Notes under the pieces: generated by a model
What the model was told of the DNA's origin: nothing
Seen by the model: the letters and a program-made list of their open reading frames with translations, nothing else
Databases searched by the model: none
Made by a program: the position numbers and the translations under genes
Shown: positions 1 through 13,411 of the stretch, one piece after another
Numbering within the stretch: the stretch's first letter is position 1
How the letters are laid out: the number at the start of each line of letters is the position of its first letter
Source of the DNA: Mesorhizobium sp.
Lineage (GTDB): Bacteria > Pseudomonadota > Alphaproteobacteria > Rhizobiales > Rhizobiaceae
Length of the DNA: 64,000 nucleotides
NCBI GenBank assembly: GCA_004020545.1
Contig: SAQE01000017.1
Coordinates: 32,029-96,028, forward strand
Direction of reading: 5' to 3'

Positions 1-258
1 CACCAGGTAACGCCCGCCGGCGTCGACCACCTTGGTCCCCTGCCCGATCGCATGGCCGGCATTCGGCCCGCAATAAGCAAAACGGCCGGCGGCGATCGCG
101 ATATCGGTGCCGGCAATGATCTCGCCCGAATGGACATTCACCCAGCGGCCGTTGCGGATGACCAGATCGGCGGGCTTGCGGCCCATCGCAACATCGACCA
201 GATGCGTCGCCACCTCGGTCCAGGGCTTGGGTTTCATCTTGTTCGCGCTTCCCGCCAT
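1..258 (-). CDS. ade: adenine deaminase, N-terminal 86 codons (runs off the window)
   Basis: Only the first 86 residues are present; the gene continues beyond position 1. The protein begins with a short polar leader and then reads RKPADLVIRNGRWVNVHSG followed by a GTDIAIAAGRFAYCGP stretch. This is the N-terminal beta-sandwich typical of amidohydrolase-superfamily adenine deaminases, which convert adenine to hypoxanthine in purine salvage. The metal-binding HxH motif would lie outside the window. The start at 258 could also be the internal Met at 237, because neither has a clear Shine-Dalgarno sequence. Dihydroorotase or another amidohydrolase is the main alternative. Confidence 0.75.
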   Translation of the reverse strand, partial: MAGSANKMKPKPWTEVATHLVDVAMGRKPADLVIRNGRWVNVHSGEIIAGTDIAIAAGRFAYCGPNAGHAIGQGTKVVDAGGRYLV

Positions 259-303
259 GACGGACTCCTGTTTGCCCGACTGTGCCAAGCGGGCGCGGTT
301 TTG

Positions 304-322
304 ACCAGTTGGCAAAACTGGT
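304..322. promoter_or_regulatory. perfect inverted repeat upstream of ade
   Basis: Arms ACCAGTT and AACTGGT are separated by GGCAA, 46 bases upstream of the ade start. On the plus strand the repeat is followed by TTGTTTTT. It could be an operator for ade or a terminator-like hairpin; no plus-strand gene ends before it, which favours the operator reading. Confidence 0.35.
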
Positions 323-415
323 TTGTTTTTAAGGCAACAGCAGTTTTGGCGGATATCTCCTCCGGCAAGGCGAAATTGCTTAGACTGACGGCCCATTCTG
401 TCGTCCGGATAAAAG

Positions 416-628
416 ATGGCACAGACGCTTCGGTTCGCAATTTTCGTGTTGTCGGCATGTTGCGCCGGCCTGGCCTTCTTCACCTTTCATTCGTTCTGGG
501 CATGGGCCGCGCCGATCGCCATCCTCATCGCCGGCTCGTTGTTTGCCGAATACGCTTTCAGCCGGCTGGCCTCGCCCGAGGAGAAACAGCGCGATCTGGA
601 AGACCGCGTGCGCAACCCGCCGACGTAA
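416..628 (+). CDS. small inner-membrane protein of unknown function (70 aa)
   Basis: A 70-residue protein with one long or two closely spaced hydrophobic segments over residues 6-45, followed by a charged tail rich in Glu/Arg (residues 52-66). It fits a small integral membrane protein with a cytoplasmic tail. No family is recognised. It starts at an ATG about 90 bases downstream of the hairpin at 304-322 and is followed, 91 bases later, by the outer-membrane protein gene on the same strand. Codon use is GC3-rich like its neighbours, which supports it as a real gene. Confidence 0.6.
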   Translation: MAQTLRFAIFVLSACCAGLAFFTFHSFWAWAAPIAILIAGSLFAEYAFSRLASPEEKQRDLEDRVRNPPT

Positions 629-719
629 ACCACTGTTGCAGAAATACAATTCCGTTTTGCGGCGAATAACGCTAGGTTGTGCTAAGGAGTCTTTCGAAAC
701 CGCCATTTCGGAGCGCTCG

Positions 720-1385
720 ATGCGTCGCCTGACGCTCGCCAGTGCCGGCTTTTTCGCCCTGCTGTCCGGGTCTGCCCTGGCCGCGGACATAGGCGCCGAT
801 TTACCCATGACCGCGCCCGGCTTCGACTGGACGGGCTACTATGCCGGCCTCCAGGCCGGTTACGGTTGGGGCCGCTCCGACATCGCCGGCACGGAAGGCG
901 AGCCTTTCGCCGCTTCACTCGATCTCGACGGCGGCTTTGTCGGCGGCCATGTCGCCGGCCTGTGGCAGTTCAACCAGGCGGTGATCGGTGCCCGAGCCGA
1001 GCTCAACTATTCCGCGGTGGACGGTTCGGCTCAGCTAAGTCCCGGAAATTCTGTCGGCATCGACATCAAGTGGCTGGGATCGGTCAATGCCGAGGCCGGC
1101 TTGGCGGCGGATCGCTGGCTGGTCTACGGCGTCGGCGGCGTCGCTTTCGCCGGCATCGAGACCTCGCAAAATGCCGGCACCGGCTTTGCCGAGACACGCA
1201 CCGGCACGGGCTGGACGATCGGCGCCGGCGTCGACTATGCGTTGAGCAACAACATCGTCGTCGGCGCGCAGTACCGCTACTACGATTTCGGCAAGGAGCA
1301 TTTCGACGTCCCCGACGACTTCTCCGATCGCGACCAGGACGTGAAGCTGCACACGCTGGGCGTGAACTTCAGCTACAAGTTCTGA
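720..1385 (+). CDS. outer membrane beta-barrel protein (Omp25/Omp31-like)
   Basis: A 221-residue secreted protein. The ATG at 720 opens a classic signal peptide (MRRLTLASAGFFALLSGSALA, cleavage expected after ALA-A near residue 22). The mature part has the FDWTGYYAGLQAGYGWG opening shared by rhizobial and Brucella Omp25/Omp31 barrels, alternating beta strands with Gly/Tyr-rich turns, and a C-terminal LHTLGVNFSYKF strand ending in Phe, the outer-membrane insertion signal. It is probably a structural surface protein of the outer membrane. The reading frame stays open upstream to 543, but the signal peptide fixes the start at 720. Confidence 0.85.
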   Translation: MRRLTLASAGFFALLSGSALAADIGADLPMTAPGFDWTGYYAGLQAGYGWGRSDIAGTEGEPFAASLDLDGGFVGGHVAGLWQFNQAVIGARAELNYSAVDGSAQLSPGNSVGIDIKWLGSVNAEAGLAADRWLVYGVGGVAFAGIETSQNAGTGFAETRTGTGWTIGAGVDYALSNNIVVGAQYRYYDFGKEHFDVPDDFSDRDQDVKLHTLGVNFSYKF

Positions 1386-1548
1386 ATTGCGGAGCAGCAA
1401 CGGAACGAAGGTGGCCGGCGCCCGCAGGGGGCGGGGGGAATGGGTAGGGCCTGAAAGACGCCGGCCGCAGCGGATCAAGTCCACCGCGAGGACGACCGTA
1501 GCGAACGCCTCCGGAGGCGTAATTGCGCGATCACGCCACTATCCAGGA

Positions 1549-1782
1549 TCAAGCCGAAGTCGTCTTCCCGGCCGGCATGGCGGCCAGGCACTCCTCCAGC
1601 CGCTCCAGGCGCGCCTTTTGCCATCGCAAGCTGTGCGCAATGTCGTGGAGCTTTCCCTTGCCCCCCGAGTTGGCGGCCTCGATAAAGTCGAGCTCAAGCT
1701 GGGCAATCTCGCGCCGCAACTCCTGCGCCTCGGCTTCCCGCAGTCCTTTGATCCACCCGGCCCCGCGCATGGCTGCACGCAT
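1549..1782 (-). CDS. small coiled-coil hypothetical protein (77 aa)
   Basis: A 77-residue, highly charged, helix-forming protein. Two heptad-like amphipathic stretches (residues 15-37 and 50-67, rich in Glu, Arg and Leu) suggest a helical hairpin. There is no signal peptide or membrane segment, and no family is recognised. Codon use is strongly GC3-biased in this frame. The start may be the Met at residue 5 instead. It is convergent with the barrel protein gene. Confidence 0.5.
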   Translation of the reverse strand: MRAAMRGAGWIKGLREAEAQELRREIAQLELDFIEAANSGGKGKLHDIAHSLRWQKARLERLEECLAAMPAGKTTSA

Positions 1783-1971
1783 TCTGCCATCAACGTAGGC
1801 TCGATGTTGGCAAGGAAATGCTAACGATATCGGCTAGGACAATCTCGAATTTTAAACATAGCTAATATATTCGCACCGTGGTGCCGTTTTGCCTGTCGCG
1901 GTTCCCGCAACGGCGCTTGCCCCAAACAAGCCTTGACGGCTACAGGCTGACATCTGAAAAGGGCTTCGCCA

Positions 1972-2011
1972 GCGGACGTGGCGGAATTGGTAGACGCAAG
2001 GGACTTAAAAT
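1972..2011 (+). pseudogene. 5' half of a split tRNA-Leu(UAA)
   Basis: Forty bases give the acceptor 5' strand GCGGACG, the D arm (GGCGGAATTGGTAGACGC) and the anticodon arm as far as loop sequence CTTAAAA with anticodon TAA. The sequence then diverges, with no variable arm, T arm or acceptor 3' strand. The missing 3' half lies about 1 kb downstream at 2995-3040, and its CGTCCGC pairs perfectly with GCGGACG, so both halves once formed one gene. An insertion broke it in the anticodon loop. Confidence 0.92.
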
Positions 2012-2026
2012 ATCCCTTGCGTCTAC
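1993..2026. repeat. 14-bp-arm palindrome at the left tRNA/element junction
   Basis: The tRNA sequence TAGACGCAAGGGA and its preceding G are followed, after CTTAAAATA, by the exact reverse complement TCCCTTGCGTCTA plus C. Half of the palindrome is host tRNA and half is element. This is the layout of paired core-binding sites of a tyrosine recombinase flanking the crossover. Confidence 0.7.
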
Positions 2027-2201
2027 AGCAATGTTTTCAATGGCTTACCTCGGCACCCCACCCTGCCTCTGCACGCTCCTGAGTTGCGACGGTTTTCAAC
2101 CTCTGATTTTGCCATGCCAACTTATTGAAATCGCGCCGCTATATTTCCTCCATTGAAGCGATCTTCCCACTCCCGATACCGATGCCCACGAAAAGAGAAA
2201 A

Positions 2202-2222
2202 TGTGGGAAATCTTGTGGGAAC
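2202..2222 (+). repeat. GTGGGAA direct repeats at left end of the element
   Basis: Two tandem TGTGGGAA motifs (TGTGGGAAATC then TTGTGGGAA) just downstream of the element's gene. They match the motif cluster at the other end of the element and are candidate arm-type integrase or directionality-factor sites. Confidence 0.5.
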
Positions 2223-2226
2223 ACGC

Positions 2227-2670
2227 TTAGTCAGTACTGCCGCTCTCGGCCGCTTCATTTTCGATGGCCACGCGCTGAACCACGTCGGGGGACACATGCA
2301 TGATGGTAATATCGAAAGCCCGATAAGCCTCATCTGGCGTAGTGCCGCGTTCGATTTCCGCCTTCGTCATGCCGTCCTTCAGTTGCTCGTTGCGCAGTTT
2401 GGTCAGGATTGATCCAAGTCCATGGTGATGGCCGAAACTTGGCGCGACGTATTCGCCTGAGGGCGTCCAGCCGCCGAAGTGCATCGCAATATGCACGTCT
2501 TGGAGTTCCTCTGGGTCAGACGCGCTGATCCTGGCTAGCTCTTTGATGAGTTCCTCAATTGCAGCTTTGGTCATGTATGCGGTTACGCCCATGACATCCA
2601 ATCGCAGCGCCAAGCTGTGCGGTCCAGCCGACATCTTTTTCGCAGGTTTTTTCGTTGGTCGCCTAGCCAT
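2227..2670 (-). CDS. unknown cargo protein of the tRNA-Leu element (147 aa)
   Basis: A 147-residue soluble protein with a very basic N-terminus (ARRPTKKPAKK), a predicted helical stretch with conserved-looking TKAAIEELIKELARI (residues 33-47), a Gly/His-rich loop (GHHHGLGS near residue 80) and an acidic C-terminus. I recognise no family. The frame is open upstream across the tRNA gene, but coding through a tRNA is unlikely, so I start at the ATG at 2670. The gene lies 48 bases downstream of the tRNA-Leu on the same strand and may share its transcript. The lower GC3 and its location mark it as acquired. A function in immunity or maintenance is possible but cannot be read from the sequence. Confidence 0.65.
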   Translation of the reverse strand: MARRPTKKPAKKMSAGPHSLALRLDVMGVTAYMTKAAIEELIKELARISASDPEELQDVHIAMHFGGWTPSGEYVAPSFGHHHGLGSILTKLRNEQLKDGMTKAEIERGTTPDEAYRAFDITIMHVSPDVVQRVAIENEAAESGSTD

Positions 2671-2717
2671 GCTTAAATTGCCTCCGTGCCGTGATGCGTT
2701 CGATCCTATGGGAAGCA

Positions 2718-2802
2718 TGGTGCGGGCGGCGGGACTTGAACCCGCATGGCCGAAGCCTCCGGATTTTAAGTCCGGTGTGTATACCAATTTCACCACGCCC
2801 GC
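2718..2802 (-). tRNA. tRNA-Leu(UAA), complete, carried inside the element
   Basis: Reading the minus strand, the acceptor pair GCGGGCG/CGCCCGC, D arm with AAATTGGTA, anticodon stem ACCGGA around loop CTTAAAA (anticodon TAA), long class II variable arm AGGCTTCGGCCAT, T arm GCGGGTTCAAGTCCCGC, discriminator A and encoded CCA are all present. The body differs strongly from the interrupted host tRNA, so it is not a local duplicate. It would supply the UAA-anticodon leucine tRNA lost by the insertion. Confidence 0.95.
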
Positions 2803-2871
2803 AGTGCCCGCACATGTACGCGTGGTGTGGGATTTTGCAAAGAGCAAGAGATTAGGCTCGCACACTTGATT

Positions 2872-2910
2872 GCGTGGGAAATATCGTGGGGATTTCCCAC
2901 GCATGTGGGA
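2872..2910. repeat. palindrome and GTGGGA repeats at right end of the element
   Basis: A perfect inverted repeat with 11-bp arms (GCGTGGGAAAT at 2872-2882, ATTTCCCACGC at 2892-2902) is followed by another TGTGGGA. It shares its motif with the repeats at 2202-2222. This probably marks protein-binding sites for excision or integration. Confidence 0.55.
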
Positions 2911-2980
2911 GAAAACCGGCCTTCACCATCAGCTCGAAGTCCCCGTTTTCCAGGCTGTTGAGCGGGAAGCACCGTAGAAA

Positions 2981-3040
2981 AAGGGACTTAAAATCCCTCG
3001 ATCTCTGATCGTACGGGTTCGATTCCCGTCGTCCGCACCA
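2981..3040 (+). pseudogene. 3' half of the split tRNA-Leu(UAA)
   Basis: It contains the anticodon loop repeat, anticodon 3' stem, variable arm (CTCGATCTCTGATCGT), T arm ACGGGTTCGATTCCCGT, acceptor 3' strand CGTCCGC, discriminator A and CCA. The bases before it (GGGAAGCACCGTAGAAA) cannot form an acceptor 5' strand or D arm, so this copy is not functional. Joined to 1972-2011 it gives an 86-nt tRNA with perfect acceptor pairing. Confidence 0.92.
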
Positions 3041-3295
3041 CATTGAAATTGCTTGCTTACTCTAATTCTGTCTTTGGGGTCGGCTACGAGAGGATTTCCG
3101 CTCCGATCCGCGAAGGGCGATAATGCAATTTGGGCTCGAAGCCTCGCTACAACGCGGGGTCATGCGCTGCATTGCAGCGTTCGCTGTCATCTTGGCAGGA
3201 TTTCTCGTCTGGATCGCCATCCGTCACTGACAGCCCTGCCACCGAAGCAGCCGGGCCAACTTGTCACTTGGTAGCCGGCTTGTGTGATTGGCTGC

Positions 3296-3499
3296 CTACC
3301 ACCCCAAGTGAATTATCTGGGAAAGATCGGCGATATCGCCATAGATCATCGAACCTTTGACGAGGGAACACTTGCCATCCAGGACCTCGAAGAGCCGACT
3401 CGACGCCGTGCAAACCGGCGGAACGTTCCGGCCCTTGGCTTCGGCATAGCCGACGCTGATCGCGAGGATAGCGATAGCAATGAGAGTGGTCTTGCTCAT
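3296..3499 (-). CDS. small secreted hypothetical protein (67 aa)
   Basis: A 67-residue protein starting at 3499 behind an AGGGG Shine-Dalgarno sequence. Residues 1-21 form a signal peptide (MSKTTLIAIAILAISVGYAEA). The mature part is about 45 residues with two cysteines (C30 and C44) that could form one disulfide. It ends in a hydrophobic SQIIHLGW. It is probably periplasmic. No family is recognised. An in-frame upstream Met at 3550 would bury the signal peptide and is rejected. Confidence 0.6.
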   Translation of the reverse strand: MSKTTLIAIAILAISVGYAEAKGRNVPPVCTASSRLFEVLDGKCSLVKGSMIYGDIADLSQIIHLGW

Positions 3500-3744
3500 A
3501 TCTAACCCCTGAAGCCAACTGGCTCTTGGGCCGCAAAACCGGGTTGCCACCCCTCAAGTAGCATCGGGCAATGATGGGCTTCATCATCGATTGGAATGAC
3601 GAGGCAGCCATTGAGGCCGCGCGAACAAAAAGCCCCGGAAGCCGAAGCCGTCGGGCCACCGGCAACGACTGCTGAGAAGGCAAGGTTACCCGATCGAAAG
3701 CTTTTCCGTGCATCAATGGCTGACGCGCATGGGAAGGGCTCGGG

Positions 3745-5577
3745 ATGTCGACAATCGGGGCGATCTACCGCCGCACCCCTGCCTCGGTCGCGATCGTCTG
3801 GCTGGCGCTCAGCGCCGTTCTGAGCCTGCTGCTGTTGCAAGGCAAAATGCCCAACGGCGACGTCGACGACCTGATGAAGCTGCATGAAATCAGGCATCTG
3901 CTGCAAACAGGCAATCCGTTCGACAGGACGCTGACGGGCATTGCTCAGCCCGAACCCATGGTCTCGCACTGGCCATGGATCGTCGACGCGCCCTATGCGC
4001 TGGTGGCGGCCGCGATTGCGCCGTTTGTCGGGATGGAGGCTGCGGTCGCAGTCGCGGCATTCACCGTGCCGTTGCTGCTGCTGCTGGTCGCAATGACCTT
4101 GCTTTTCCTGCTGATCAGGGAATTCGAGTTCGAACATCCCGGCGCGGTGCTGGCTGTCGCCGCCTTCGCCGGGCTGCCCGCATTTTCGGAATTTCAACCC
4201 TGGCGTATCGACTACCACAATCTGCAGATGCTTATCCTTCTCGGCGCGGCGCTGCTGACGATCCGTGGCGGACGGGTTGCCGCCGGGCTGAACGGTGCCT
4301 TGATGGCGCTGTCCACGGCGATCAGCGCCGAAATGGCGCCGTTCCTTGTTCTGCCGGTCGGCTTCTATGCCTTGGCGTTCGTCGCCGGGAAGAGCGACGC
4401 AGGGAAAGATCTCAGGGCTTACGGTCTCGCACTGGCGGCTGCCGGTATTGTAATGTTCTTTCTGGTCGTAGGGCCTCGGACTTATACAAGTGCCGCTTGC
4501 GACCGCTATTCGCTTTTGCACCTTACCGCGCTTGCGGTCACCGGTGTCACGCTTGCGGGAATCTCCACCGCGGGGACGGTTGGAAGCTGGCGGATAAGGG
4601 CCGCCTGTCTTTTGGTCGCCGCCTGTGCGACCGCCGCGTTGCTTGTTTTCTTCTTTCCCCAGTGCGCGGGTGGACCGCTTGTCGGCATGAGCGACTACGT
4701 GCGCGACAACTGGCTTTTGCGCATCGACCAAGAACGCAGCATCTTCTACAGCGCGGACTTTATAAGCTCCGACCGTTTCACCCGGTTCTTCCTCGCCATT
4801 CTGGGCACTGCCGCGACAAGCATCCTGGCCATCTCCGGCACGACAAGAAAGCGAGCCTGGGTGGTTCTTGCGGTCTTCTCGACAGCAGGCCTCCTGCTAG
4901 GACTGCTCTATCTGCGATATCTCCGTTTCTTCCCGCTTTTCGTCGGTCCCGGGACAGCCCTGCTTATCCACCAGGGCCTTCCTGCCTGGCTGCCGCTAAG
5001 GCGCTGTTTCGGCACAAGGTCGGACAACGGGTTGCCCGGCGTTTGGCTTCTTGCCGCTCCTGGAGCGGCGATTGTCGCTGCCCTTTTTGCGGGCCATCTG
5101 GTTTGGCCGCCCCAGCTAACGAAACTGATAGGCATCGACATCGCCGATGCTTGCGAGAAAGCCGATGCCGGTCCGCATTTCGTTTGGCCGGAAGGCGCTC
5201 GGCTATTCGCGCCTGCCGGGATCGAAGTGGCCGCATTGGGGTCGCCTGCCGATCTCGAAGTCGTGGCGGTCCCATTCCACACATCGGTCAAGGGCATTGA
5301 GCGCGTCCTGCGATTTTTCGATCCGGCTACGCCCGATCCGGCGCGGCTGCTTGATGAAACCAAGGCCACCCATGTTGCGGTCTGCCGTGTGGAGGAAGAG
5401 ACCCTCAAGCCGGTCGAAGCCCAGTTCCCGCTGGCCAGCCGTTTGGCGACGGGAAGGCCACCGGACTGGCTGACGGAGTGTCCCGTTGCGGGCCGGCTGC
5501 GCATCTATCGATATCCGGCGGCAGGCGGTCCTTCCGGCCAGTGTCCTGTCACGGGCCAGGGAGCCCTGGCGCCGTGA
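3745..5577 (+). CDS. polytopic membrane protein, GT-C glycosyltransferase-like (610 aa)
   Basis: A 610-residue protein with about 11-12 hydrophobic segments up to residue ~465 and a soluble C-terminal region of ~145 residues. After the first transmembrane helix it reads NGDVDDLMKLHEIRHLLQTG, an acidic DxDD loop placed like the first-loop catalytic/metal motif of GT-C fold glycosyltransferases. HWPWIVDAPYA follows. I infer a lipid-linked sugar or mannosyl-type transferase acting at the outer face of the inner membrane; the substrate is unknown. A GGAAGGGCTCGGG stretch precedes the ATG. It stands alone between a small secreted protein and nudK, with no polysaccharide cluster beside it. Confidence 0.7.
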   Translation: MSTIGAIYRRTPASVAIVWLALSAVLSLLLLQGKMPNGDVDDLMKLHEIRHLLQTGNPFDRTLTGIAQPEPMVSHWPWIVDAPYALVAAAIAPFVGMEAAVAVAAFTVPLLLLLVAMTLLFLLIREFEFEHPGAVLAVAAFAGLPAFSEFQPWRIDYHNLQMLILLGAALLTIRGGRVAAGLNGALMALSTAISAEMAPFLVLPVGFYALAFVAGKSDAGKDLRAYGLALAAAGIVMFFLVVGPRTYTSAACDRYSLLHLTALAVTGVTLAGISTAGTVGSWRIRAACLLVAACATAALLVFFFPQCAGGPLVGMSDYVRDNWLLRIDQERSIFYSADFISSDRFTRFFLAILGTAATSILAISGTTRKRAWVVLAVFSTAGLLLGLLYLRYLRFFPLFVGPGTALLIHQGLPAWLPLRRCFGTRSDNGLPGVWLLAAPGAAIVAALFAGHLVWPPQLTKLIGIDIADACEKADAGPHFVWPEGARLFAPAGIEVAALGSPADLEVVAVPFHTSVKGIERVLRFFDPATPDPARLLDETKATHVAVCRVEEETLKPVEAQFPLASRLATGRPPDWLTECPVAGRLRIYRYPAAGGPSGQCPVTGQGALAP

Positions 5578-5583
5578 CGTCCG

Positions 5584-6162
5584 TCAAGGGGCGATCGGGT
5601 TCAACTTCAGATGCTGGATCAGGATGATGGTCTTGGCGTCGACGATGCGGCCGTCGGCAATGCCGGCCAGCGCCTCGTCGAGCGGCATCTCCAGAACCTC
5701 GATGTCCTCGCCCTCTTCCGGCGCCCCGCCGCCGTCGGAGATGCGGTCGGCCGGCGAATAGCGCGCAATGAAGAACCAGAGCCTTTCCGTCACGCTGCCG
5801 GGGCTCATATAGGGCGCGAACAGCCGCTGCACGTCCTTCAGCCGATAGCCGAGTTCTTCCTCCGCTTCCTTGCGGATGCAGGTTTCCGGATCGTTTTCAT
5901 CAAGCAATCCGGCGCAGGCCTCGATCAGCGGCTCGCGATGGCCGGTGACATAGGCCGGATAGCGGAACTGCCGCACCAGGAGCACCGTGGAGCGCTCCGG
6001 GTCGAAGGGCAGGATGACCGCGCCGTCGCCCCGGTCGTAGGTCTGGCGCGTCTGCGTTTCCCAGCGCCCGTCGCGGCGGCGGTAGTCGAGCACCGTCTTC
6101 TTCAGCACCGCCCAGTCGTCGGACAGGACTTCTTCGGAGCGGATGCGGACGCGATCTTCCAT
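5584..6162 (-). CDS. nudK: GDP-mannose pyrophosphatase NudK-type NUDIX hydrolase
   Basis: A 192-residue protein, the same length as E. coli NudK (191). The NUDIX region reads AGLLDENDPETCIRKEAEEELGY, followed by YMSPGSVTERLWFFIARY and EDIEVLEMPLDEAL, all diagnostic of the NudK branch. These enzymes hydrolyse GDP-mannose and related nucleotide sugars, using Mg2+ bound by the NUDIX glutamates. I place the start at 6162 (MEDRVRIRSEEV); an upstream in-frame Met at 6201 adds a non-conserved proline-rich stretch. It is convergent with the membrane protein gene, 6 bases away. Confidence 0.88.
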   Translation of the reverse strand: MEDRVRIRSEEVLSDDWAVLKKTVLDYRRRDGRWETQTRQTYDRGDGAVILPFDPERSTVLLVRQFRYPAYVTGHREPLIEACAGLLDENDPETCIRKEAEEELGYRLKDVQRLFAPYMSPGSVTERLWFFIARYSPADRISDGGGAPEEGEDIEVLEMPLDEALAGIADGRIVDAKTIILIQHLKLNPIAP

Positions 6163-6195
6163 GGGTGGTCTCCGTGCTGCCGGCGGCAAGGGTTG

Positions 6196-6320
6196 GAGCA
6201 ATTCCAGGAAAAGTGGAAACGGTTAGGCTCGGCGCCTTCGCCGTAGCCTCCGTCCGGAATTGCGTCAAAACGAAAGAGATAGAGCGGTCCTCTGTTCCCA
6301 CGAAACGGAGGACCGCTCTA
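6196..6320 (+). repeat. dispersed palindromic intergenic repeat, copy A (with hairpin insert)
   Basis: The modular repeat starts GAGCAATTCCAGGAAAAGT, continues through an internal hairpin GGCTCGGCGCCTTCGCCGTAGCC-like insert, CCGTCCGGAATTGCGT, and ends in a second perfect hairpin with 13-bp arms TAGAGCGGTCCTC/GAGGACCGCTCTA. Related copies are at 7903-8000, 13412-13540, 25829-25906 and, inverted, 46326-46397. Confidence 0.85.
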
Positions 6321-6444
6321 GCCGCGAACCGGCGCCTGCGCAATCCTGGAAACCGACTGGTCCAGCGGGACTTTCACCGGCTCGTGTCTGGCGCAAAGTG
6401 CTGCCGCTGCCTAGATAGCGATATCTCTCCCAGGAGCCCGTTTC

Positions 6445-7548
6445 ATGACATCATCGCTTTTCCAGCCGATCACCCTCGGCGGCCTCACCTTCCCCAACCG
6501 CATCGCGGTGGCGCCGATGTGCCAGTATTCGGCCGAGGACGGCTCCGCCAGCGACTGGCACCTCCACCACTGGATGAACCTCGCCATGTCCGGCGCCGGC
6601 ATGGTGACCGTCGAGATGACCGACGTCGAGCGGCGGGGCCGCATCTCGCATGGCTGCCTCGGCCTCTACTCCGACGACAACGAGGCGGCGGCCAAGCGCA
6701 CGCTCGACGCCGCCAGGCGCGTCGCAGCACCCGGCACCAAATTCGGCGTCCAACTCGCCCATGCCGGCCGCAAAGCCTCCAACAGGAAGCCCTGGGAAGG
6801 CGGCGGCCCCCTGCAGCCAGGCGAGGATCCCTGGCAGACCGTTTCGGCTTCGGCCGTCGCCTACGACACAGGGTGGAATGTGCCCCACGCACTGGACGAA
6901 GAAGAGATCCAGCAAGTCATCCAGCGTTTCGCCGAGGCGGCCAAGCGGGCAGAGCGTGCCGGCTTCGACTTCATCGAATTGCACGCCGCTCACGGCTATC
7001 TGATCTTCCAGTTCCTGTCGCCGCTCTCCAACCAGCGCACGGACCGCTGGGGCGGCTCATTGGAAAACCGCATGCGCTTCGCCATCGAGATCGCCAGGGC
7101 GGTGAAGAAGGTCGCACCGGACCTGATGCTCGGCGCGCGCCTTTCGGTGAAGGAATGGGTCGATGGCGGCTTCGATGTCGAAGAGGCGATCGAAGTGGCC
7201 AGGGCGCTGAAGGCGGAGGGCGTTGCCTATCTCTGCTGTTCCAGCGGCGGCAATTCGCCTCTGCAGAAGCTGCCCAGCGGTCCCGGCTACCAGGTGCATC
7301 TGGCGGAAGCGATCCGCAAGGGCGCCGGCATCGCGACGCGCGCGGTGGGACTGATCGACGATCCGAAGCAGGCCGAAGCGATTGTCGCCGATGGCCGTGC
7401 CGACATGGTGGCGCTGGCGCGCGCCTTCCTCGCCGACCCGCGCTGGGGCTGGCGCGCGGCGGCGACGTTCGGCGAGGAAATCCGCCCGGCGCCGCAGTTG
7501 GCGCGTTCGGTGACGACCATGCAGCACTGGATGAAGGCGGCCGGTTGA
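6445..7548 (+). CDS. NADH:flavin oxidoreductase, YqjM/NamA-type old yellow enzyme
   Basis: A 367-residue TIM-barrel FMN enzyme, about the usual length of the 'thermophilic-like' class of old yellow enzymes. Residues APMCQYSA put the redox-tuning cysteine at position 26, as in YqjM. FGVQLAHAGRK, ELHAAHGYLIFQFLSP (active-site His pair near residue 179), SNQRTDRWGGSLENRMRF and a C-terminal ALARAFLADPRW phosphate-binding region follow. Such enzymes reduce activated C=C bonds with NAD(P)H; the natural substrate is unknown. A CAGGAG Shine-Dalgarno sequence precedes the ATG. Confidence 0.9.
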   Translation: MTSSLFQPITLGGLTFPNRIAVAPMCQYSAEDGSASDWHLHHWMNLAMSGAGMVTVEMTDVERRGRISHGCLGLYSDDNEAAAKRTLDAARRVAAPGTKFGVQLAHAGRKASNRKPWEGGGPLQPGEDPWQTVSASAVAYDTGWNVPHALDEEEIQQVIQRFAEAAKRAERAGFDFIELHAAHGYLIFQFLSPLSNQRTDRWGGSLENRMRFAIEIARAVKKVAPDLMLGARLSVKEWVDGGFDVEEAIEVARALKAEGVAYLCCSSGGNSPLQKLPSGPGYQVHLAEAIRKGAGIATRAVGLIDDPKQAEAIVADGRADMVALARAFLADPRWGWRAAATFGEEIRPAPQLARSVTTMQHWMKAAG

Positions 7549-7625
7549 CGCGGCGGAACTGAGACCATTGGGCGCAGGGGTCCCGTCACGATTGCAACCA
7601 AATTGGCCGCTTTGCGTTGGCGGCC

Positions 7626-7904
7626 ATGACAGACAACAAGCCATTTGAAAAGCCGGTGGTGGTCGAACTCGGCCATGTCGGCAAATACCGCCAGATAAGC
7701 AGCACGCGCGAAGCCGCCGAGTGCCTGATGACCGTTTGGCCGCTCAATCGCGGTCAGCGGCATCGTGATGCTCTCGACACTTGCCTCAAGGCGCTGGAAG
7801 GTTATCGTTCGACGGCGGACGCACGCCGCGCGTTGATCGAGGCAGCCGAGGAATCCGAAGTGCTGGTCCCCGAAGACACGTTGCCTGACGAAAAGCTGCA
7901 TTGA
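7626..7904 (+). CDS. DUF982 domain protein
   Basis: A 92-residue protein with the DUF982 pattern: KYRQISSTREAAECLMTVWPLNRGQRHRDALDTCLKALEGYRSTADARRALIEAAEESEVLV. DUF982 proteins are very numerous in rhizobia and of unknown function. The ATG at 7626 is preferred over an upstream TTG. The stop codon overlaps the first bases of a dispersed palindromic repeat, which may end the transcript. Confidence 0.82.
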   Translation: MTDNKPFEKPVVVELGHVGKYRQISSTREAAECLMTVWPLNRGQRHRDALDTCLKALEGYRSTADARRALIEAAEESEVLVPEDTLPDEKLH

Positions 7905-8000
7905 GCAATTCCAGGAGAAGTGCGAAGCGGTTCTCCGTCCGGAATTGCGTGAAAACAATTAGAGCAGGTCGGCGATTCCGACAGACGCCGAACTGCTCTG
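7903..8000 (+). repeat. dispersed palindromic intergenic repeat, copy B (no hairpin insert)
   Basis: The same backbone as copy A: GAGCAATTCCAGGAGAAGT, CCGTCCGGAATTGCGT and a terminal hairpin with arms AGAGCAGGTCGGCG and CGCCGAACTGCTCT. The internal GGCTCGGCG... hairpin insert is absent, which shows that it is a separable module. Confidence 0.85.
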
Positions 8001-8031
8001 GCAAGCAAGGGTTTCTCGACCGGAGGATTCC

Positions 8032-8271
8032 ATGGCGAAACTGACTTACAAGATCGTCGAGCATGACGGCGGTTGGGCCTACAAGGTAGGCTCGACTTAT
8101 TCAGAAACATTTCCCACCCACCAGGACGCGCTGCGCGCCGCCGAGATTGCTTCGGCCGAGCAGCAGGTCGCCGGCAACACGGACGGAATCCAGTATGAAG
8201 ATTCCGAGGGCGTCTGGCATGACGAGCTGGCCGACGGTCGCGACAGACCGCAGACCGAAGTTTCGGACTAA
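8032..8271 (+). CDS. DUF2188 domain protein (79 aa)
   Basis: A 79-residue soluble protein. The opening LTYKIVEHDGGWAYKVGSTYSETFPTHQDALRAAEIASAEQQ is the DUF2188 layout (a beta hairpin with a Trp, then an amphipathic helix with an AA-E pattern). The function of this family is unknown. A GGAGGA Shine-Dalgarno sequence precedes the ATG. It follows the repeat copy B and is convergent with the next small secreted protein gene. Confidence 0.75.
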   Translation: MAKLTYKIVEHDGGWAYKVGSTYSETFPTHQDALRAAEIASAEQQVAGNTDGIQYEDSEGVWHDELADGRDRPQTEVSD

Positions 8272-8341
8272 CTCTGCCGCTTCATTGCCGCGCGACCGAC
8301 ATGGCCCCAACCGTCACGTCGGCCCCTTGCTGGCGCATGAA

Positions 8342-8620
8342 TCACTTGCCGCAATACTGGTCGTTGATGTTCTGCCCGGCATTGGCATCGGGTCCTGCCG
8401 TATTCGAGGCGCATGGTCCGGCGGGGCCGGGATTGCCCAGGGTGTTCAACCCAGAGGCGTCACCGATGCTGCCTGTGGTTGTGCGATCGATCGGCACGTC
8501 CCGCTCGCTCGACACCGGACGATCATGATGCCACCATGACCACATGTCCGAGGACTGCGCCATTGCCGAGGTTGCCATGCCCAGCACCAGCGCGGAGGTT
8601 GCAAAAGCTTTTATAAGCAT
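8342..8620 (-). CDS. small secreted hypothetical protein (92 aa)
   Basis: About 92 residues. Residues 1-21 (MLIKAFATSALVLGMATSAMA, cleavage before QSSD) form a signal peptide. The mature part is polar, with an aromatic WSWWHHD segment, Gly/Asn-rich sequence and two C-terminal cysteines (PCASN and DQYCGK) that could be disulfide-bonded. It is likely periplasmic, and resembles short rhizobial secreted proteins with no known role. An ATG 12 bases upstream (8632) is possible, but the signal peptide fits the start at 8620 better. Confidence 0.6.
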   Translation of the reverse strand: MLIKAFATSALVLGMATSAMAQSSDMWSWWHHDRPVSSERDVPIDRTTTGSIGDASGLNTLGNPGPAGPCASNTAGPDANAGQNINDQYCGK

Positions 8621-8781
8621 TGGATACTCCATTCAGTTGGCCGCCGCGACGTTGACGGCGACGCGAATGAAACCCTGGGTTGGACGTGAAGGTTCCAAAA
8701 GAAAACCCGGCTGAAGCAAAGTCACCCGACACGTTTGTGTGACGAGGCCGTGAGCGCCGAAGCATTCGACTTGGCTGAATT

Positions 8782-9756
8782 TCAGGTGACGCCCGCGAAT
8801 GCACGCGCAGCGATGCGCTGAATGAAGGCGACCACGCGTTCGGGCTCCGCGAATTGCGGCATGTGGCCAAGCCCGTCGATCCGTTCGAAGTCGAGCCCCT
8901 TGATCTTGTCCAGCATAGGCTCGCCATGAGTGGCAATGCCGAAAACGCGATCCTCCGTGCCGAACAGTATGCCGGCCGGCACGGCGATCTCGCCATAGTG
9001 CCGCTCCAAGCGGCCGAGATCTTCTTCCACCGCCACCACATCGGTCGAAGTCGCGTGGAAATGAGTAGGCCGCAGCCCAAGCCATCCACCTCCGGCGATC
9101 ATATAGTCCTCGGGAACGGTTTGCGGCGCGAAGATGAATTTCATCGTCGGTTCGGCGTATTTCAGACTGGCTGGTATCGCCACCGTATAGGCTATCACCC
9201 GACGCCACAGGCGTGAGGGAATATAGAGCAGGTCGAATTTCTGGCGCACCCGTTCTTCCAGATGCGTGAGCGGTGCGAGCAGCGCGATACCGGAAATCGC
9301 TGCCGGATGCCCGACAGCAAGTGCAAGCGCGATGGCGCCGCCAAGCGAGTGGCCGACGATCAGGGGCCGTTCCAGCCCAAGTTCTCCGATGAAGCGCCGC
9401 ACCATTTCGGCTTGCTCAGGCAGACGGCCGGACGCCCCACCGGCCCGAACCGAATATCCCGAACCCGGCCGGTCGAGCGCGATCAGCCGGTAGCCGGCAT
9501 CGAAATGTCCGAACAGGGTATGGCGGAAATGGTGAAGCTGCGCGCCGAGGCCGTGCAGGAAGACGATTGGCCTGCCCTCGCCTTCTTCGACATAGTGGAT
9601 GCGGTTGCCGTCGAACTCGACGAACTTCCCGCAAGCCGGCACCAGCCTTTCGGCCCGGGCCGCGATCCGCCATGTTGCAAGCATCAGGCCGAGCACGACG
9701 ACAGCCGCCGCAACGAGCACGCCGCCGATCAGCCACGACAAAATAGATATCAGCAT
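8782..9756 (-). CDS. membrane-anchored alpha/beta hydrolase
   Basis: A 324-residue protein with an N-terminal transmembrane anchor (residues 4-30) and then an alpha/beta-hydrolase domain: VFLHGLGAQLHHFR oxyanion region, nucleophile elbow VGHSLGGA (Ser near 136), acid FGTEDRVFG (near 269) and His in GLGHMPQFAEP (near 297), so the triad is complete. Substrates of such esterase/epoxide-hydrolase-like enzymes vary and cannot be read here. The start at 9756 is supported by the membrane anchor. It is divergent from the CinA-like gene. Confidence 0.85.
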   Translation of the reverse strand: MLISILSWLIGGVLVAAAVVVLGLMLATWRIAARAERLVPACGKFVEFDGNRIHYVEEGEGRPIVFLHGLGAQLHHFRHTLFGHFDAGYRLIALDRPGSGYSVRAGGASGRLPEQAEMVRRFIGELGLERPLIVGHSLGGAIALALAVGHPAAISGIALLAPLTHLEERVRQKFDLLYIPSRLWRRVIAYTVAIPASLKYAEPTMKFIFAPQTVPEDYMIAGGGWLGLRPTHFHATSTDVVAVEEDLGRLERHYGEIAVPAGILFGTEDRVFGIATHGEPMLDKIKGLDFERIDGLGHMPQFAEPERVVAFIQRIAARAFAGVT

Positions 9757-9884
9757 CTTCCACCCGAGCCGGACCGGCGCACCTTACCCGCAACCTGCTC
9801 TGCCACAAGAGCACTACCTTGCCTGCGCATTGCGGCCGGCCGCCGGCCGCGTTATCTCAGGCGAACCTGTTGCCGGAGTGAGCC

Positions 9885-10625
9885 ATGCCTGAAATCGTCA
9901 CCGCCGCCATGCTTGTCATCGGCGACGAAATCCTCTCCGGCCGCACCAAGGACAAGAACATCGGCCATCTCGCCGACATCATGACGGCGATCGGCATCGA
10001 CCTGAAGGAAGTGCGGATTGTTCCCGACGAGGAGGACGAGATCGTCTCCGCCGTAAACGCGCTCCGCGCCCGCTACACCTACGTCTTCACCACCGGCGGC
10101 ATCGGGCCCACGCATGACGACATCACCGCCGACTCCGTCGCCAAGGCCTTCGGCGTGCCCTGCGAGTACGATGTCAAGGCCTATGCCATGCTCGAAGCAA
10201 GCTATGCGCAACGCGGCATCGAATTCACCGAGGCGCGCAAGCGCATGGCGCGCATGCCGCGCGCCGCCGACCACATCGATAATCCGGTCTCGATCGCGCC
10301 CGGCTTCCGCATCGGCAACGTTCACGTGATGGCCGGCGTGCCGTCGATCTTCCAGGCGATGCTCGACAATGTCGTGCCGACGCTGAAGACGGGCACCAAG
10401 ATGCTGTCGGCCACGGTGCCCTGCCCGTTCGGCGAAGGCCTGATCGGCGGGCCGCTGGCCGACATCCAGAAGGCGCACCCCGACACCATCATCGGCTCCT
10501 ACCCGAAATACGGCGACGGCAAGTTCTGGACCGAGCTTGTTGTACGCGCCCGCAATGAACCGGCGCTGGAGGCCGCGCGCAGGGACGTCGAGGCCATGGT
10601 GGCGGGCTTGTCGGCTGCAAGCTGA
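9885..10625 (+). CDS. CinA-like molybdopterin-binding domain protein
   Basis: A 246-residue protein with the MoCF/MoeA-type fold found at the N-terminus of competence/damage-inducible protein CinA: AAMLVIGDEILSGRTKDKN, FTTGGIGPTHDDITADSVAKAFG and the MPRAADHIDNPVSIAPGFRIGNVHVMAGVP segment. The C-terminal nicotinamide-nucleotide deamidase domain of full CinA is missing, which is the normal short form in alphaproteobacteria. The biochemical role of the short form is unsettled (CoA/ADP-ribose-type pyrophosphatase or cofactor binding). A terminator hairpin follows at 10651. Confidence 0.85.
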   Translation: MPEIVTAAMLVIGDEILSGRTKDKNIGHLADIMTAIGIDLKEVRIVPDEEDEIVSAVNALRARYTYVFTTGGIGPTHDDITADSVAKAFGVPCEYDVKAYAMLEASYAQRGIEFTEARKRMARMPRAADHIDNPVSIAPGFRIGNVHVMAGVPSIFQAMLDNVVPTLKTGTKMLSATVPCPFGEGLIGGPLADIQKAHPDTIIGSYPKYGDGKFWTELVVRARNEPALEAARRDVEAMVAGLSAAS

Positions 10626-10650
10626 CGCCATCGTCGGACCGGAACCAAGG

Positions 10651-10672
10651 ACGCCGTAACGGCGTTTGTTTT
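10651..10672 (+). terminator. Rho-independent terminator after the CinA-like gene
   Basis: Stem ACGCCG/CGGCGT with a TAA loop, followed by TTGTTTT. A second 7-bp hairpin (CCGGCGC/GCGCCGG) follows at once. Confidence 0.75.
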
Positions 10673-10742
10673 CCGGCGCGTTTGCGCCGGCATTTGAGGG
10701 CCGGACGCACATCTCGCGCCGACTCTTTTTTTGGGGGATGTC

Positions 10743-11576
10743 ATGCGCTTCAAGACAATCGTCGCCATTCTGCAGAACGAGCAGGACGCGGAGCGCGTGC
10801 TCGACTGCGCCATTCCGCTCGCCGAGCGGTTCGAAAGCCACCTCGTCGGCATCCACGCGGAAGCGCTTCCGGTGCCCTATACGTCGGCCACCGGTTTTCC
10901 CGATACCGAATTTCTGCAGGTTTCGGCCGAGATGAACAAGGAGCGCGCCGACAAGCTGCAGGCGGTGTTCCTCGGGCGCGTTGAGGATTCTGGTCTCTCC
11001 TTCGAGTGGCGCAGCCTGGAAAGCTTCTCCGGCGACAGCGCGCTGACCGGCATATCGAGCGTGCGGGCGGCGGATCTGATCATCGCCGCTCAGCGCGATA
11101 CGGGAGGCGATCCGGGTGCCGACGTCGACACGCTGGTCTATGACGCTGGCCGGCCAGTGCTGGTCGTGCCGCATGCCGGGCCGCTGGTCACCACCTTCAG
11201 GCGCGTGCTGCTCGCCTGGAACGGCAGCAAGGAGGCGGCTCGCGCCGCATTCGATGCCCTGCCCTTCATCAGCGAGGCCGACAAGACCGACATTCTCGTC
11301 ATCGACCCGCCGGAGACACTGGATGAGGCTCCCGAGGCAGCGGGCGCCGAGATAGCGGCCGCGTTATCGCGCCATGGCGCCAATGTCAGCGTTTGCGTGC
11401 AGAAATCGAGCGGCGCTTCGGTCGACGATATCATCCAGGAGAGGATTGCCGAATCCGGCGCCGACCTGCTGGTGCTGGGCGCCTACAGCCACTCCTGGCT
11501 GCGCCAGCTTCTGTTCGGCGGCGTCACCCGCACCGTGCTACACACGGCAAACGTTGCGGCCTTCCTGTCGAGATAA
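10743..11576 (+). CDS. universal stress protein, tandem UspA domains
   Basis: A 277-residue protein made of two UspA-like halves. The first (residues 1-140) starts MRFKTIVAILQNEQDAERVLDCAIPLAERF. The second (from ~150) has RVLLAWNGSKEAARAAFDALPF and ends with the nucleotide-binding signature ADLLVLGAYSHSWLRQLLFGGVTRTVLHTANVA, close to the ATP-binding G-2x-G-9x-G(S/T) motif. It probably senses or buffers stress states in the cytoplasm. The ATG at 10743 is used; a TTG 12 bases upstream is possible. A dispersed palindromic repeat begins directly at the stop codon. Confidence 0.85.
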   Translation: MRFKTIVAILQNEQDAERVLDCAIPLAERFESHLVGIHAEALPVPYTSATGFPDTEFLQVSAEMNKERADKLQAVFLGRVEDSGLSFEWRSLESFSGDSALTGISSVRAADLIIAAQRDTGGDPGADVDTLVYDAGRPVLVVPHAGPLVTTFRRVLLAWNGSKEAARAAFDALPFISEADKTDILVIDPPETLDEAPEAAGAEIAAALSRHGANVSVCVQKSSGASVDDIIQERIAESGADLLVLGAYSHSWLRQLLFGGVTRTVLHTANVAAFLSR

Positions 11577-11652
11577 GCATGTCTCCCGAAAGTGGTAACC
11601 GGTTTCGGGACAAAGACATGCTGAACGCGTTTCGGCGCGACGCGCTGTAAGT
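11577..11652 (+). repeat. second type of dispersed palindromic repeat
   Basis: Nested arms GCATGTC...GACATGC and CCGAAA...TTTCGG form a hairpin (11577-11621) directly after the usp stop codon. It is followed by CGCGTTTCGGCGCGACGCGCTGTAAG, which resembles half of the hairpin at 49804-49848. It may act as the transcription terminator. Confidence 0.7.
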
Positions 11653-11761
11653 CCACAGCCATCGCGAACTCCCACCTTGCCAAGCCTGGCGCTTTCCGGC
11701 TAATTCCGCCTGCATTCCATAGTATTTGCGCGCCGCGGCGCGCTTGCGGAGTGTGCGAACC

Positions 11762-12262
11762 ATGTCCCTTCCCGAAAAAGCCTTTCCCGTCTCCTGGGAC
11801 CAGTTCCACCGTGACGCCCGCGCGCTCTCCTGGCGGCTTTCCGGCGCCAACAAGGGACAGTGGAAGGCGATTGTCTGCATAACCCGAGGCGGCCTGGTGC
11901 CTGCGGCTATCATCGCGCGCGAGCTCGGTATCCGGGTCATCGAGACCGTCTGCGTGGCCTCTTACCATGACTACACGAGCCAGGGTCAGTTGCAGGTCCT
12001 GAAGGAGATCTCGCCTCCGCTGCTTGCCGACGACGGCGTCGGCGTGTTGATCATCGATGACCTCACCGATACCGGCAAGACGGCGGGCATCGTGCGCGCG
12101 ATGATGCCGAAGGCGCATTTCGCGACAGTCTATGCCAAGCCGAAGGGCCGGCCTCTGGTCGATACATTCGTCACCGAGGTCAGCCAGGACACCTGGATCT
12201 ACTTTCCATGGGACATGGGCTTCACCTACCAGAAGCCGATCGCCGACGATCACGCCGGCTGA
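11762..12262 (+). CDS. gpt: xanthine(-guanine) phosphoribosyltransferase
   Basis: A 166-residue purine salvage enzyme that joins xanthine or guanine to PRPP. The PRPP-binding loop [15 protein letters not shown] lies at residues 95-109. The early [18 protein letters not shown] segment and the C-terminal [10 protein letters not shown] base-pocket strand are typical of the Gpt branch. The start at 11762 ([18 protein letters not shown]) matches the family N-terminus better than an upstream Met at 11726. The gene stands alone; a hairpin at 12291-12315 follows. Confidence 0.92.
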
Positions 12263-12290
12263 GCACCGAGAAATTTTCAAAGAATCCGAC

Positions 12291-12315
12291 TTTGAGGCAC
12301 GTTTGTGCCCTCAAA
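12291..12315 (+). terminator. hairpin downstream of gpt
   Basis: TTTGAGG-CAC and GTG-CCCTCAAA form a stem with a GTTT loop, 28 bases after the gpt stop. There is no T-run directly after it, but the AT-rich 12316-12420 stretch contains several. The rest of 12316-12467 holds no recognisable feature. Confidence 0.5.
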
Positions 12316-12467
12316 TCCTACCGGATGAGCACAATTGCTTTTGGGACATTGACTTTTTCTGGTGGGATTTTCTCGAACGAGTGAAGTTTTTTACTTTTAA
12401 AGCTCATAATTCGCCGTAAGATTCATAAGATGGCAAACGATTCCGGAGGCTGGGGGCAGCTTCTCCA

Positions 12468-12971
12468 ATGTTGACGAGGCCGACGACGCACAACCAGATG
12501 GCCGAAAGAGTCAGGCGACTCTTCGGCACCGCGCCGTGCCGCCTGCAGGTTGCCGCCTTGCCCTGGCGCGAGGGTGAACACGGCATCGAGATCATGCTGA
12601 TCACCAGCCGCGACACCGGACGCTGGGTTCTGCCCAAAGGCTGGCCGGAGGCCAGGGAGCCGCTTTGCGAGGCCGCCGCTCGGGAAGCGGGCGAAGAGGC
12701 CGGATTGCGCGGCACCATCTCGCATCTCGAAGCCGGCCGTTACTTTTACGCCAAGGTCCTGGCTTCAGGCGAGGAAGCGCCTTGCGAGGTCCTGGTATTC
12801 CCGCTCAAGGTCGACCGCGTTGCCGACCGCTGGAAGGAAAAGCGCGCCCGCATCCGCAAATGGGTCGGCTCCGCCGAGGCCGTCAGCATGGTCAATGAGC
12901 CCGATCTTTGCCAGATCATCACCTATTTCTGCGCCGATCCGCATAGATTCGCCAAGTCATCGATCACATAA
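12468..12971 (+). CDS. NUDIX hydrolase (diphosphoinositol-polyphosphate/Ap4A-type)
   Basis: A 167-residue protein with a canonical NUDIX box beginning at GWPEAREPLCEAAAREAGEEAGL (G-x5-E-x7-REU-x-EE-x-GU all present). The preceding SRDTGRWVLPKGWPE segment places it near the DIPP/Ap4A group of phosphohydrolases that remove diphosphates from nucleoside or inositol polyphosphates. The substrate is not predictable from sequence alone. The start could also be the Met at 12498 (MAERVRRLFG), because no strong Shine-Dalgarno sequence is seen before either. Confidence 0.82.
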   Translation: MLTRPTTHNQMAERVRRLFGTAPCRLQVAALPWREGEHGIEIMLITSRDTGRWVLPKGWPEAREPLCEAAAREAGEEAGLRGTISHLEAGRYFYAKVLASGEEAPCEVLVFPLKVDRVADRWKEKRARIRKWVGSAEAVSMVNEPDLCQIITYFCADPHRFAKSSIT

Positions 12972-13071
12972 CCACATATGCAGTGCGGCGAGCATGCCGC
13001 GCATTGCGGCGCGCGGGCATCGGTGCTTTGTTTGCCGCTGCAAGAGCCGATTCGGCTAACGGCGTCGATCG

Positions 13072-13383
13072 ATGATGAACCCCGCGCAACCACTCGAAGA
13101 AACCTCCGGCGAACACCGGCGCGAGCATCGCCAGCGCGTGCTCAAGGGCGGGACGATCATCACCGGCATCCAGAATTCCGAGGTCAGTTGCACGCTGCGC
13201 AATCAGAATCCCGGCGGCGCTGAGCTGAAAGTCGCACCGGAATCGCGTGTCCCCGATCATTTCCTGCTCTATGTTCCGGTCGATGGGGTGGCCTATCGGG
13301 CGGAAGTCCGCTGGCGCCGCAACGACCGCGTCGGTGTCAAGTTCACCGGTATTGAGCCCAAGCCCAGGCTGCATTACGGTTGA
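13072..13383 (+). CDS. PilZ domain protein (103 aa)
   Basis: A 103-residue protein. RREHRQRVLKGGTI (RxxxR at residues 16-20) and, after a short loop, NPGGAELKV plus RWRRNDRVGVKF give the minimal single PilZ domain that binds c-di-GMP. The second motif, usually D/NxSxxG, reads NQNPGGAEL, so binding should be tested. It is probably an output protein for the c-di-GMP pool made by the two diguanylate cyclases in this window. The start may be either of the two adjacent Met codons. Confidence 0.8.
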   Translation: MMNPAQPLEETSGEHRREHRQRVLKGGTIITGIQNSEVSCTLRNQNPGGAELKVAPESRVPDHFLLYVPVDGVAYRAEVRWRRNDRVGVKFTGIEPKPRLHYG

Positions 13384-13411
13384 CGGTCCGCAAGGCAGGA
13401 AGGCACCCGGC

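Follow-up and report, generated by a model that had tools for sequence, protein, structure and literature searches.

A 983-bp element that splits the host tRNA-Leu(UAA) gene of a Mesorhizobium carries a complete foreign tRNA-Leu(UAA) and is one of a set of mini-elements

RESULTS AND DISCUSSION

The resident tRNA-Leu(UAA) gene of the Mesorhizobium genome studied here (G000, a 188-contig draft assembly with a stated completeness of 100%) is broken in its anticodon loop by a 983-bp insertion, and this insertion carries a complete foreign tRNA-Leu(UAA). It is probably a minimal integrative element that obeys the rule of tRNA-dependent integration. The element is no single oddity but one of a set of mini-elements. 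In what follows, the window is the whole 64-kb stretch of DNA that was analyzed, W is the copy of the element in it, and G and L numbers denote compared genomes and loci. The features of the locus, in window coordinates, are as follows.

1972 to 2011, plus strand: 5′ half of the host tRNA-Leu(UAA), cut in the anticodon loop; intact in the sister genome G011
1998 to 2011, plus strand: left copy of the 14-bp core repeat AAGGGACTTAAAAT; shared crossover region CTTAAAA (proposed) at 2004 to 2010
2012 to 2994, no strand: inserted element, 983 bp including one repeat copy, from the repeat spacing and the comparison with G011
2013 to 2026, plus strand: perfect inverted copy of host tRNA positions 1990 to 2003, spanning the left core, with 14-bp arms and 9 nt between them
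2201 to 2220, plus strand: putative left arm-type sites ATGTGGGAAATCTTGTGGGA, in tandem with a 12-bp period
2227 to 2670, minus strand: cargo ORF of 147 aa, no family found; dN/dS of 0.19 to 0.40 among five copies
2718 to 2802, minus strand: complete foreign tRNA-Leu(UAA), the replacement (ARAGORN; Rfam tRNA, 65.9 bits)
2874 to 2911, plus strand: putative right arm-type sites GTGGGAAAT..GTGGG..ATTTCCCAC..TGTGGGAG
2981 to 2994, plus strand: right copy of the core repeat AAGGGACTTAAAAT; CTTAAAA at 2987 to 2993
2995 to 3040, plus strand: 3′ half of the host tRNA-Leu(UAA), with CCA encoded; intact in G011

The split gene and its replacement

A sequence-only reading of this DNA had described 1972 to 2011 and 2995 to 3040 as two halves of one tRNA, separated by a 983-bp insertion with a 14-bp repeat and an opposite-strand tRNA-Leu(UAA) at 2718 to 2802. 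All of these coordinates were confirmed, and the tRNA is uninterrupted in G011. The host halves pair perfectly with each other in G000, and ARAGORN reports a single tRNA gene in the element, the Leu(UAA) on the minus strand. The element does not supply the missing half and neither junction forms a complete tRNA, which bears out the earlier statement that the host gene is not rebuilt. An inverted repeat spans 1990 to 2026, where the first bases of the element are the host D-arm reversed; among the left ends compared, this 14-bp inverted repeat is present only in W and in the element of G140.

All 47 Rfam tRNA matches in G000 were inspected with ARAGORN, and the sole Leu(UAA) among them in this draft assembly is that of the element; the remaining leucine tRNA genes have the anticodons CAA, TAG, CAG, and GAG, one each. 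A normal ARAGORN call is missing for two of the 47, one of which has an unreadable anticodon. The other, L078 (G000:C166:69339-69443), is a 105-base match of 54 bits for which ARAGORN reports no gene. The anticodon stem-loop GGACTTAAAATCC occurs exactly at only two places in G000, one in the element tRNA and one in the 3′ half of the broken gene; one mismatch adds two further sites, in tRNA-Phe and tRNA-Sec. The whole-genome count with Rfam and ARAGORN, to which the earlier reading had tied its proposal of replacement, therefore gives one Leu(UAA) gene, inside the element, and the 47 matches checked include no intact host-type copy elsewhere in the assembly.

The closest relative compared, G011, shares 94.5% identity over 9.6 kb of aligned flanks, and its tRNA is called uninterrupted by ARAGORN. 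In the alignment the G011 flanks are joined, as the earlier reading had envisaged for a relative with an intact gene: window positions 1 to 2011 and 2981 to 3053 match adjoining stretches of G011 that overlap by exactly the 14-bp repeat. Identity is 95.3% from position 1 to the left core; from the right core 73 bases are identical, and the next aligned piece starts at 3657. G018 also has an uninterrupted host-type tRNA, at the same locus and beside the same neighbor, and, among the matches listed, the two halves also overlap in many others of the 146 genus genomes. The uninterrupted gene of G011 indicates that the split gene is the resident and the element the newcomer, and the empty site indicates that the element arrived after the lineages of G000 and G011 had parted. 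Together, the sole Leu(UAA) gene, the empty sites, and the degeneration that the host halves show in some relatives support the earlier proposal that a heterologous tRNA replaces the lost one. In some species (loci L152, L171, L172, L174, and L175), the host tRNA-Leu(UAA) is reversed relative to the neighbor genes, as if the locus had been inverted.

Distribution in the genus

The search covered 146 Mesorhizobium genomes and used the left half with its flank, and the right half, as queries; the loci of 35 other genomes were examined, and the remaining genomes are known from the search matches listed. In at least 19 of the 146 genomes (G000 counted), the host tRNA is broken or partly lost and a complete foreign Leu(UAA) lies beside it. 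The earlier reading had proposed to look for the inserted sequence in other genomes; the same element was found again in G140, where it is 982 bp long. The swaps use several different replacement tRNAs. Among the matches listed, none of the 19 genomes has a second intact host-type copy, and the halves lie 573 to 2,628 bases apart in the 15 genomes with both. Neither half is among the matches listed for G075, G024, G014, and G150 (4 of 146).

Two arrangements were distinguished. The 10 class A elements (G000, G025, G066, G074, G029, G140, G007, G094, G100, and G102) have the foreign tRNA on the opposite strand, 163 to 187 bp inside the right core in the 9 of 10 that are measurable. Their tRNA is 98.8 to 100% identical to that of W in eight other genomes and 95.3% identical in G102. 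The nine class B elements (G065, G125, G103, G027, G144, G022, G149, G089, and G117) have a same-strand tRNA at the right end; at the class B loci examined, G149 gave no 3′ half, and G089 and G117 gave no 5′ half. A class A element is also present in Mesorhizobium huakuii NBRC 15243 (L063, from a different collection), where the 3′ half is mutated, no 5′ half was found within 10.4 kb, and the element tRNA equals that of W at 85 of 85 positions.

Elsewhere in the genus the tRNA is rebuilt, on the 3′ side at eight loci (G105, G107, G168, G147, G004, G123, G062, and G101) and on the 5′ side at six (G126, G108, G132, G020, G097, and G078), with 3′ remnants too in G097. The locus of G090 is rearranged.

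In G022, the left half beside the element is not that of the host but matches the tRNA brought by the G144 element. This tRNA scores 37 of 39 with the 5′ half and 51 of 56 with the 3′ half; the host type reaches 29 and 26 of 55, and the tRNA of another genus (L203) 35 and 33.5. The 3′ half comes after the class B tRNA, and outside it lies the mutated 3′ half of the host gene (L158). The scores of the two halves indicate that a tRNA acquired as a replacement was in turn disrupted and superseded when a second, nested element arrived.

Crossover site and arm-type repeats

The junctions of 16 elements were compared side by side. All 16 break the tRNA at the same loop, with a few decayed ends. The left junction GGGACTTAAAA is kept in 12 of 16, being altered in G025, G100, and G065, while in G022 another tRNA was hit; the right junction ACTTAAAATCCC is kept in 14 and absent in G094 and G022. 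The core measures 14 bp in W and from 9 to about 16 bp in the relatives compared. What the junctions have in common is CTTAAAA, the seven bases of the anticodon loop, with the inverted repeats of the stem on either side. Tyrosine recombinase sites are expected to have this form.

Repeats of arm type lie on both sides of the core, at a near-constant distance from it despite differing cargo, and are putatively integrase arm-type sites. The motif GTGGGAA occurs seven times in the 64-kb window on either strand, and five of these occurrences are inside the element. On the left arm, TGTGGG is present twice with a 12-base period in W, G140, G007, G102, G074, and G094 and in the class B element of G125. 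The stricter left-arm pattern ATGTGGGRAATNNTGTGGGA was found in 6 of the 146 genus genomes, always within a class A element, and its reversed-pattern control in none of the 146; among 397 genomes of the order the pattern was found in G000 alone. This strict form misses the deviating arm of G125 and might likewise pass over an autonomous partner with more diverged arms; the other four class A elements do not have it. The GTGGGAA pair is absent from 12 tRNA-rebuilding loci, a set that does not include G132 and G101.

Cargo genes

The 147-aa ORF has no accepted family in Pfam, PHROGs, PADLOC, or NCBIfam (two Pfam matches with E of about 0.2 fall below the cutoff), and its AlphaFold model is poor, with a mean pLDDT of 44. 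The dN/dS values of 0.19 to 0.40, obtained for the ten pairs of five copies, show purifying selection, and the ORF is therefore most likely a real gene.

Other elements carry different cargo: leucine-rich repeats in G025, a phage-type repressor in G029, a MarR-type phage regulator in G125, a DUF4145 protein with a weak PD-T7-4 match in G102 (a lead only), and in G103 a DUF2971 protein matching a defense candidate (likewise a lead only) together with a C-terminal integrase fragment. A second cargo gene, of 189 to 204 aa, is shared by G074, G094 and, by eye, G100. Searches with its alignment (A2) gave no relatives in viral contigs or phage records and two distant ones in plasmid records. A distant relative of the 189-aa gene lies directly downstream of an intact tRNA-Arg(CCU) in G313 (L256 1501-2162), and no split gene was seen beside that tRNA.

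Mobility of the element and alternative explanations

The elements of W and G140 are 983 and 982 bp long and identical at 924 of 981 aligned positions (94.2%); the left and right arm regions are 93.0 and 92.7% identical, and the tRNAs agree at 84 of 85 positions. Their flanks are only 85.9% identical over 15.3 kb of BLAST pieces, and close similarity is confined to window positions 1932 to 3041. The same relation was observed for G025 (element, 95.6% over 821 bases; flanks, 82.3% over 5.3 kb) and G066 (element, 93.2% over 585 bases; flanks, 78.7% over 1.0 kb). Since the element is more conserved than the flanks, it is younger in its present hosts than the divergence of these hosts. The finding of the same element in a species as distant as G140 further indicates that it travelled as a mini-element. 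Judged from this comparison, transfer of an element already in mini form is favored for the W-G140 pair over two separate deletions on site.

We consider it rather unlikely that the element is a relic formed in place, that is, that a full tRNA-dependent prophage or island integrated and lost on site everything except the essential tRNA and some cargo. Such a history would suit the decayed relatives, in which the left core is lost (G025 and G100) or the ORF has an internal deletion (G029), and also the integrase fragment kept in G103, the phage-type regulator kept in G125, and the existence of a full-length version in G053. W and G140, however, have the same ends and both arms, at 94.2% identity in flanks of 85.9%, and to account for this the relic would itself need an already mobile mini-element. 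Moreover, no integrase is present among the ORFs listed (at most five of at least 70 aa per element) for seven arm-aligned elements, the main ORFs of six of which were searched for families, and G182, from another genus, shows a similar layout in about 1.1 kb.

It is improbable that G000 acquired the element together with the tRNA region of another Mesorhizobium by homologous instead of site-specific recombination. The 40- and 46-bp host halves are nearly identical between species and would be usable as homology, but the tract ends would have to fall at, or within tens of bases of, these halves, given that identity between W and G011 runs up to the left core and close similarity between W and G140 is found only from 1932 to 3041.

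There is very little chance that the halves still yield a tRNA through an intron or trans-splicing: they are mutated or missing in several relatives that have the element tRNA, even though their perfect pairing in G000 and the perfect hairpin at the left junction would be in keeping with splicing. A group I intron in tRNA-Leu(UAA) was considered and rejected, with no Rfam intron match in the window at gathering thresholds. The converse polarity, raised in the sequence-only reading, of an ancestral element tRNA and imported halves deserves practically no credence, as nothing was found in its favor and the intact host-type tRNA at the same locus beside the same neighbor in G011 and G018 shows the split gene to be the resident.

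Relatives outside the genus

G182, which belongs to another genus of the family, has an insertion of about 1.1 kb in the same loop of a tRNA-Leu gene; measured between the CTTAAAA positions of the two cores, it is 1,109 bp long. The insertion holds a foreign Leu(UAA), encoded on the opposite strand. Its 189-aa cargo gene is 42% identical to that of G094 and, like it, adjoins the tRNA. Two TGTGCCA motifs like those of Rhizobium phage Pasto lie on the right arm of G182, and the tRNAs of G182 and Pasto share 90.6% identity.

The host tRNA-Leu(UAA) is split in the same way in G053, from another family of the order, by 14.5 kb (L249 2090-16604). This island has its own Leu(UAA), 92% identical to Mesorhizobium class B tRNAs (L053), with a gene for a PF00589 integrase adjoining it. 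It also encodes a resolvase, a GmrSD-type protein, and a type I restriction system. It looks like a complete version of a tRNA-replacing element.

Phage Pasto (MT708545, stretch 1-17577) encodes a tyrosine integrase and a complete tRNA-Leu(UAA) that is 83.5% identical to that of the W element. All five TGTGCCA motifs in its 17.6 kb fall within 271 bases (8644-8914) around a CTTAAAA at 8748, which is located about 175 bp from the phage's own Leu(UAA), in the same relative orientation as in the W element. We infer that this CTTAAAA is a candidate attP; we know of no experimental test of the integration site of Pasto. The two differ in size, a 42-kb phage versus about 1 kb, and in arm motif, TGTGCCA in Pasto versus TGTGGGAA in W.

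In phage LUZ100 (L213 2658-3925), ACTTAAAA is found at 3917, beyond the integrase, and a complete Leu(UAA) precedes the integrase. From this arrangement, tRNA-dependent integration of LUZ100 in Pseudomonas is possible; its authors suggested that the tRNA-Leu was recruited by imprecise excision (PMC10134795). The tRNA-Leu(UAA) of G187, of another genus (L208 14920-15003), is 98.8% identical to that of the element, and no split gene was seen within 20 kb around it; it may be a donor or another replacement.

Proposed mechanism and search for a helper integrase

As a minimal integrative element, W would enter its host through a tyrosine integrase that joins the attP of the element to the host tRNA-Leu(UAA) gene at its anticodon stem-loop, the loop CTTAAAA being the presumed crossover region. 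Neither end rebuilds the tRNA because attP shares only a short core (14 bp) with it. The integrase would act in trans and come from a phage or an island whose arm specificity matches. The element tRNA would then be expressed, take over the decoding of UUA, and be essential. Under established decoding rules, tRNA-Leu(UAA) is the sole reader of UUA; with the element tRNA decoding this codon, cells that lose it without regaining the old gene should not live. We infer from this the addiction-like character that had been suggested from the sequence alone. The conservation of the element tRNA in relatives whose host halves decay may be taken as comparative support for the need of this tRNA.

No integrase is encoded in the 983-bp element, in which the 147-aa ORF is the single supported one, and the enzyme is probably supplied in trans. 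The 22 PF00589 matches in G000 have no arm pair in the 1.8 to 3.6 kb around each, and the nearest lies 33.2 kb from the element. One G000 integrase (L226) is 37 to 40% identical over 222 to 251 residues to those of Pasto, LUZ100, and G053. Viral contigs gave no relatives for the class A tRNA pattern or the Pasto integrase, and the matches listed for a whole-element query of plasmid and phage records cover 7 to 11% of it, around the tRNA. The left-arm pattern was also found in three viral contigs, none of which has a Leu tRNA, and these matches looked fortuitous. In one of the three, the A+T-rich L221, a CTTAAAA about 180 bases from the motif is one of six such sites and was taken as chance. 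A consensus scan gave no sigma-70 promoter-like site, with a consensus that covers rhizobial promoters poorly.

We are evenly divided on the broader view that mobile elements of about 1 kb that depend on a helper form a class of their own. Each would consist of attP and its two arms, a single cargo gene, and a complete tRNA, with neither an integrase nor structural genes. Such elements would move by breaking and replacing an essential host tRNA, borrow the integrases of phages or islands whose arm sites match, become locked in through the dependence of the host on their tRNA, and replace each other serially. If this class is real, such elements would be, to our knowledge, among the smallest gene-carrying satellites.

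Relation to known systems

tRNA-dependent lysogeny is known for actinobacteriophages, Fionnbharth and others, and the authors who described it thought it plausible beyond these phages (PMC10865867). The W element resembles it in its short core (8 to 17 bp among the rows listed there, 14 bp here), in the host tRNA that is not rebuilt, in the complete tRNA of the same isotype on the element, and in the putative arm-type sites beside the core (PMC10865867). In G000, as far as the draft assembly goes, it is likewise the host's only tRNA of its kind that is broken. That report, however, describes whole temperate phages with an integrase, tested with mutants, whereas the W element is about 1 kb long with one cargo gene and no integrase and is known by comparison alone (PMC10865867). 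Because integrase and phage are absent, W was not filed under tRNA-dependent lysogeny.

Closer to the present host are the vTRX32-1-like Rhizobium phages (PMC8631192). They share with W a rhizobial host, a short tRNA-Leu core (12 bp), and a complete phage tRNA-Leu that their authors presumed to be the replacement, but their core CAGATTTAGGTT is read here as that of the UAG isoacceptor, and they are whole Autographiviridae (pro)phages of 42 to 45 kb (PMC8631192). For a Lo5R7ANS-like prophage of Sinorhizobium meliloti, two reports state that a foreign tRNA substitutes for that of the host and cite tRNA-dependent lysogeny (PMC11476347, PMC12429752). There, the prophage is intact and lies in tRNA-Leu(UAG), in contrast with the mini-element and Leu(UAA) of W (PMC11476347, PMC12429752). 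Islands that rebuild the tRNA (Islander, PMC4383910; seen here in G105, G107, G168, and others) use the same tRNA attachment region, but they bring a tRNA half with them so that the gene is intact after insertion, which is not so for the W element.

A search of the open-licence literature gave no earlier description of such 1-kb elements that lack an integrase. The principle is already published for phages; the form is new, with about 1 kb, both arms, one selected gene, one tRNA, and no integrase. tRNA-dependent integration, so far a matter of whole phages, is hereby extended to mini-elements and also, with G053, to an island that carries restriction genes. Within one genus, moreover, a tRNA that is essential and was supposed to be conserved is replaced repeatedly (at least 19 of 146 genomes). 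This makes it testable whether elements of 1 kb can subsist on integrases that they do not encode and how an 85-bp RNA gene makes a selfish element very hard to lose. Gene trees of tRNAs in these bacteria may reflect the history of phages and elements.

Elsewhere in the window, positions 49457 to 49568 match the EcpR1 small RNA (RF02500) of Rfam with 106.5 bits.
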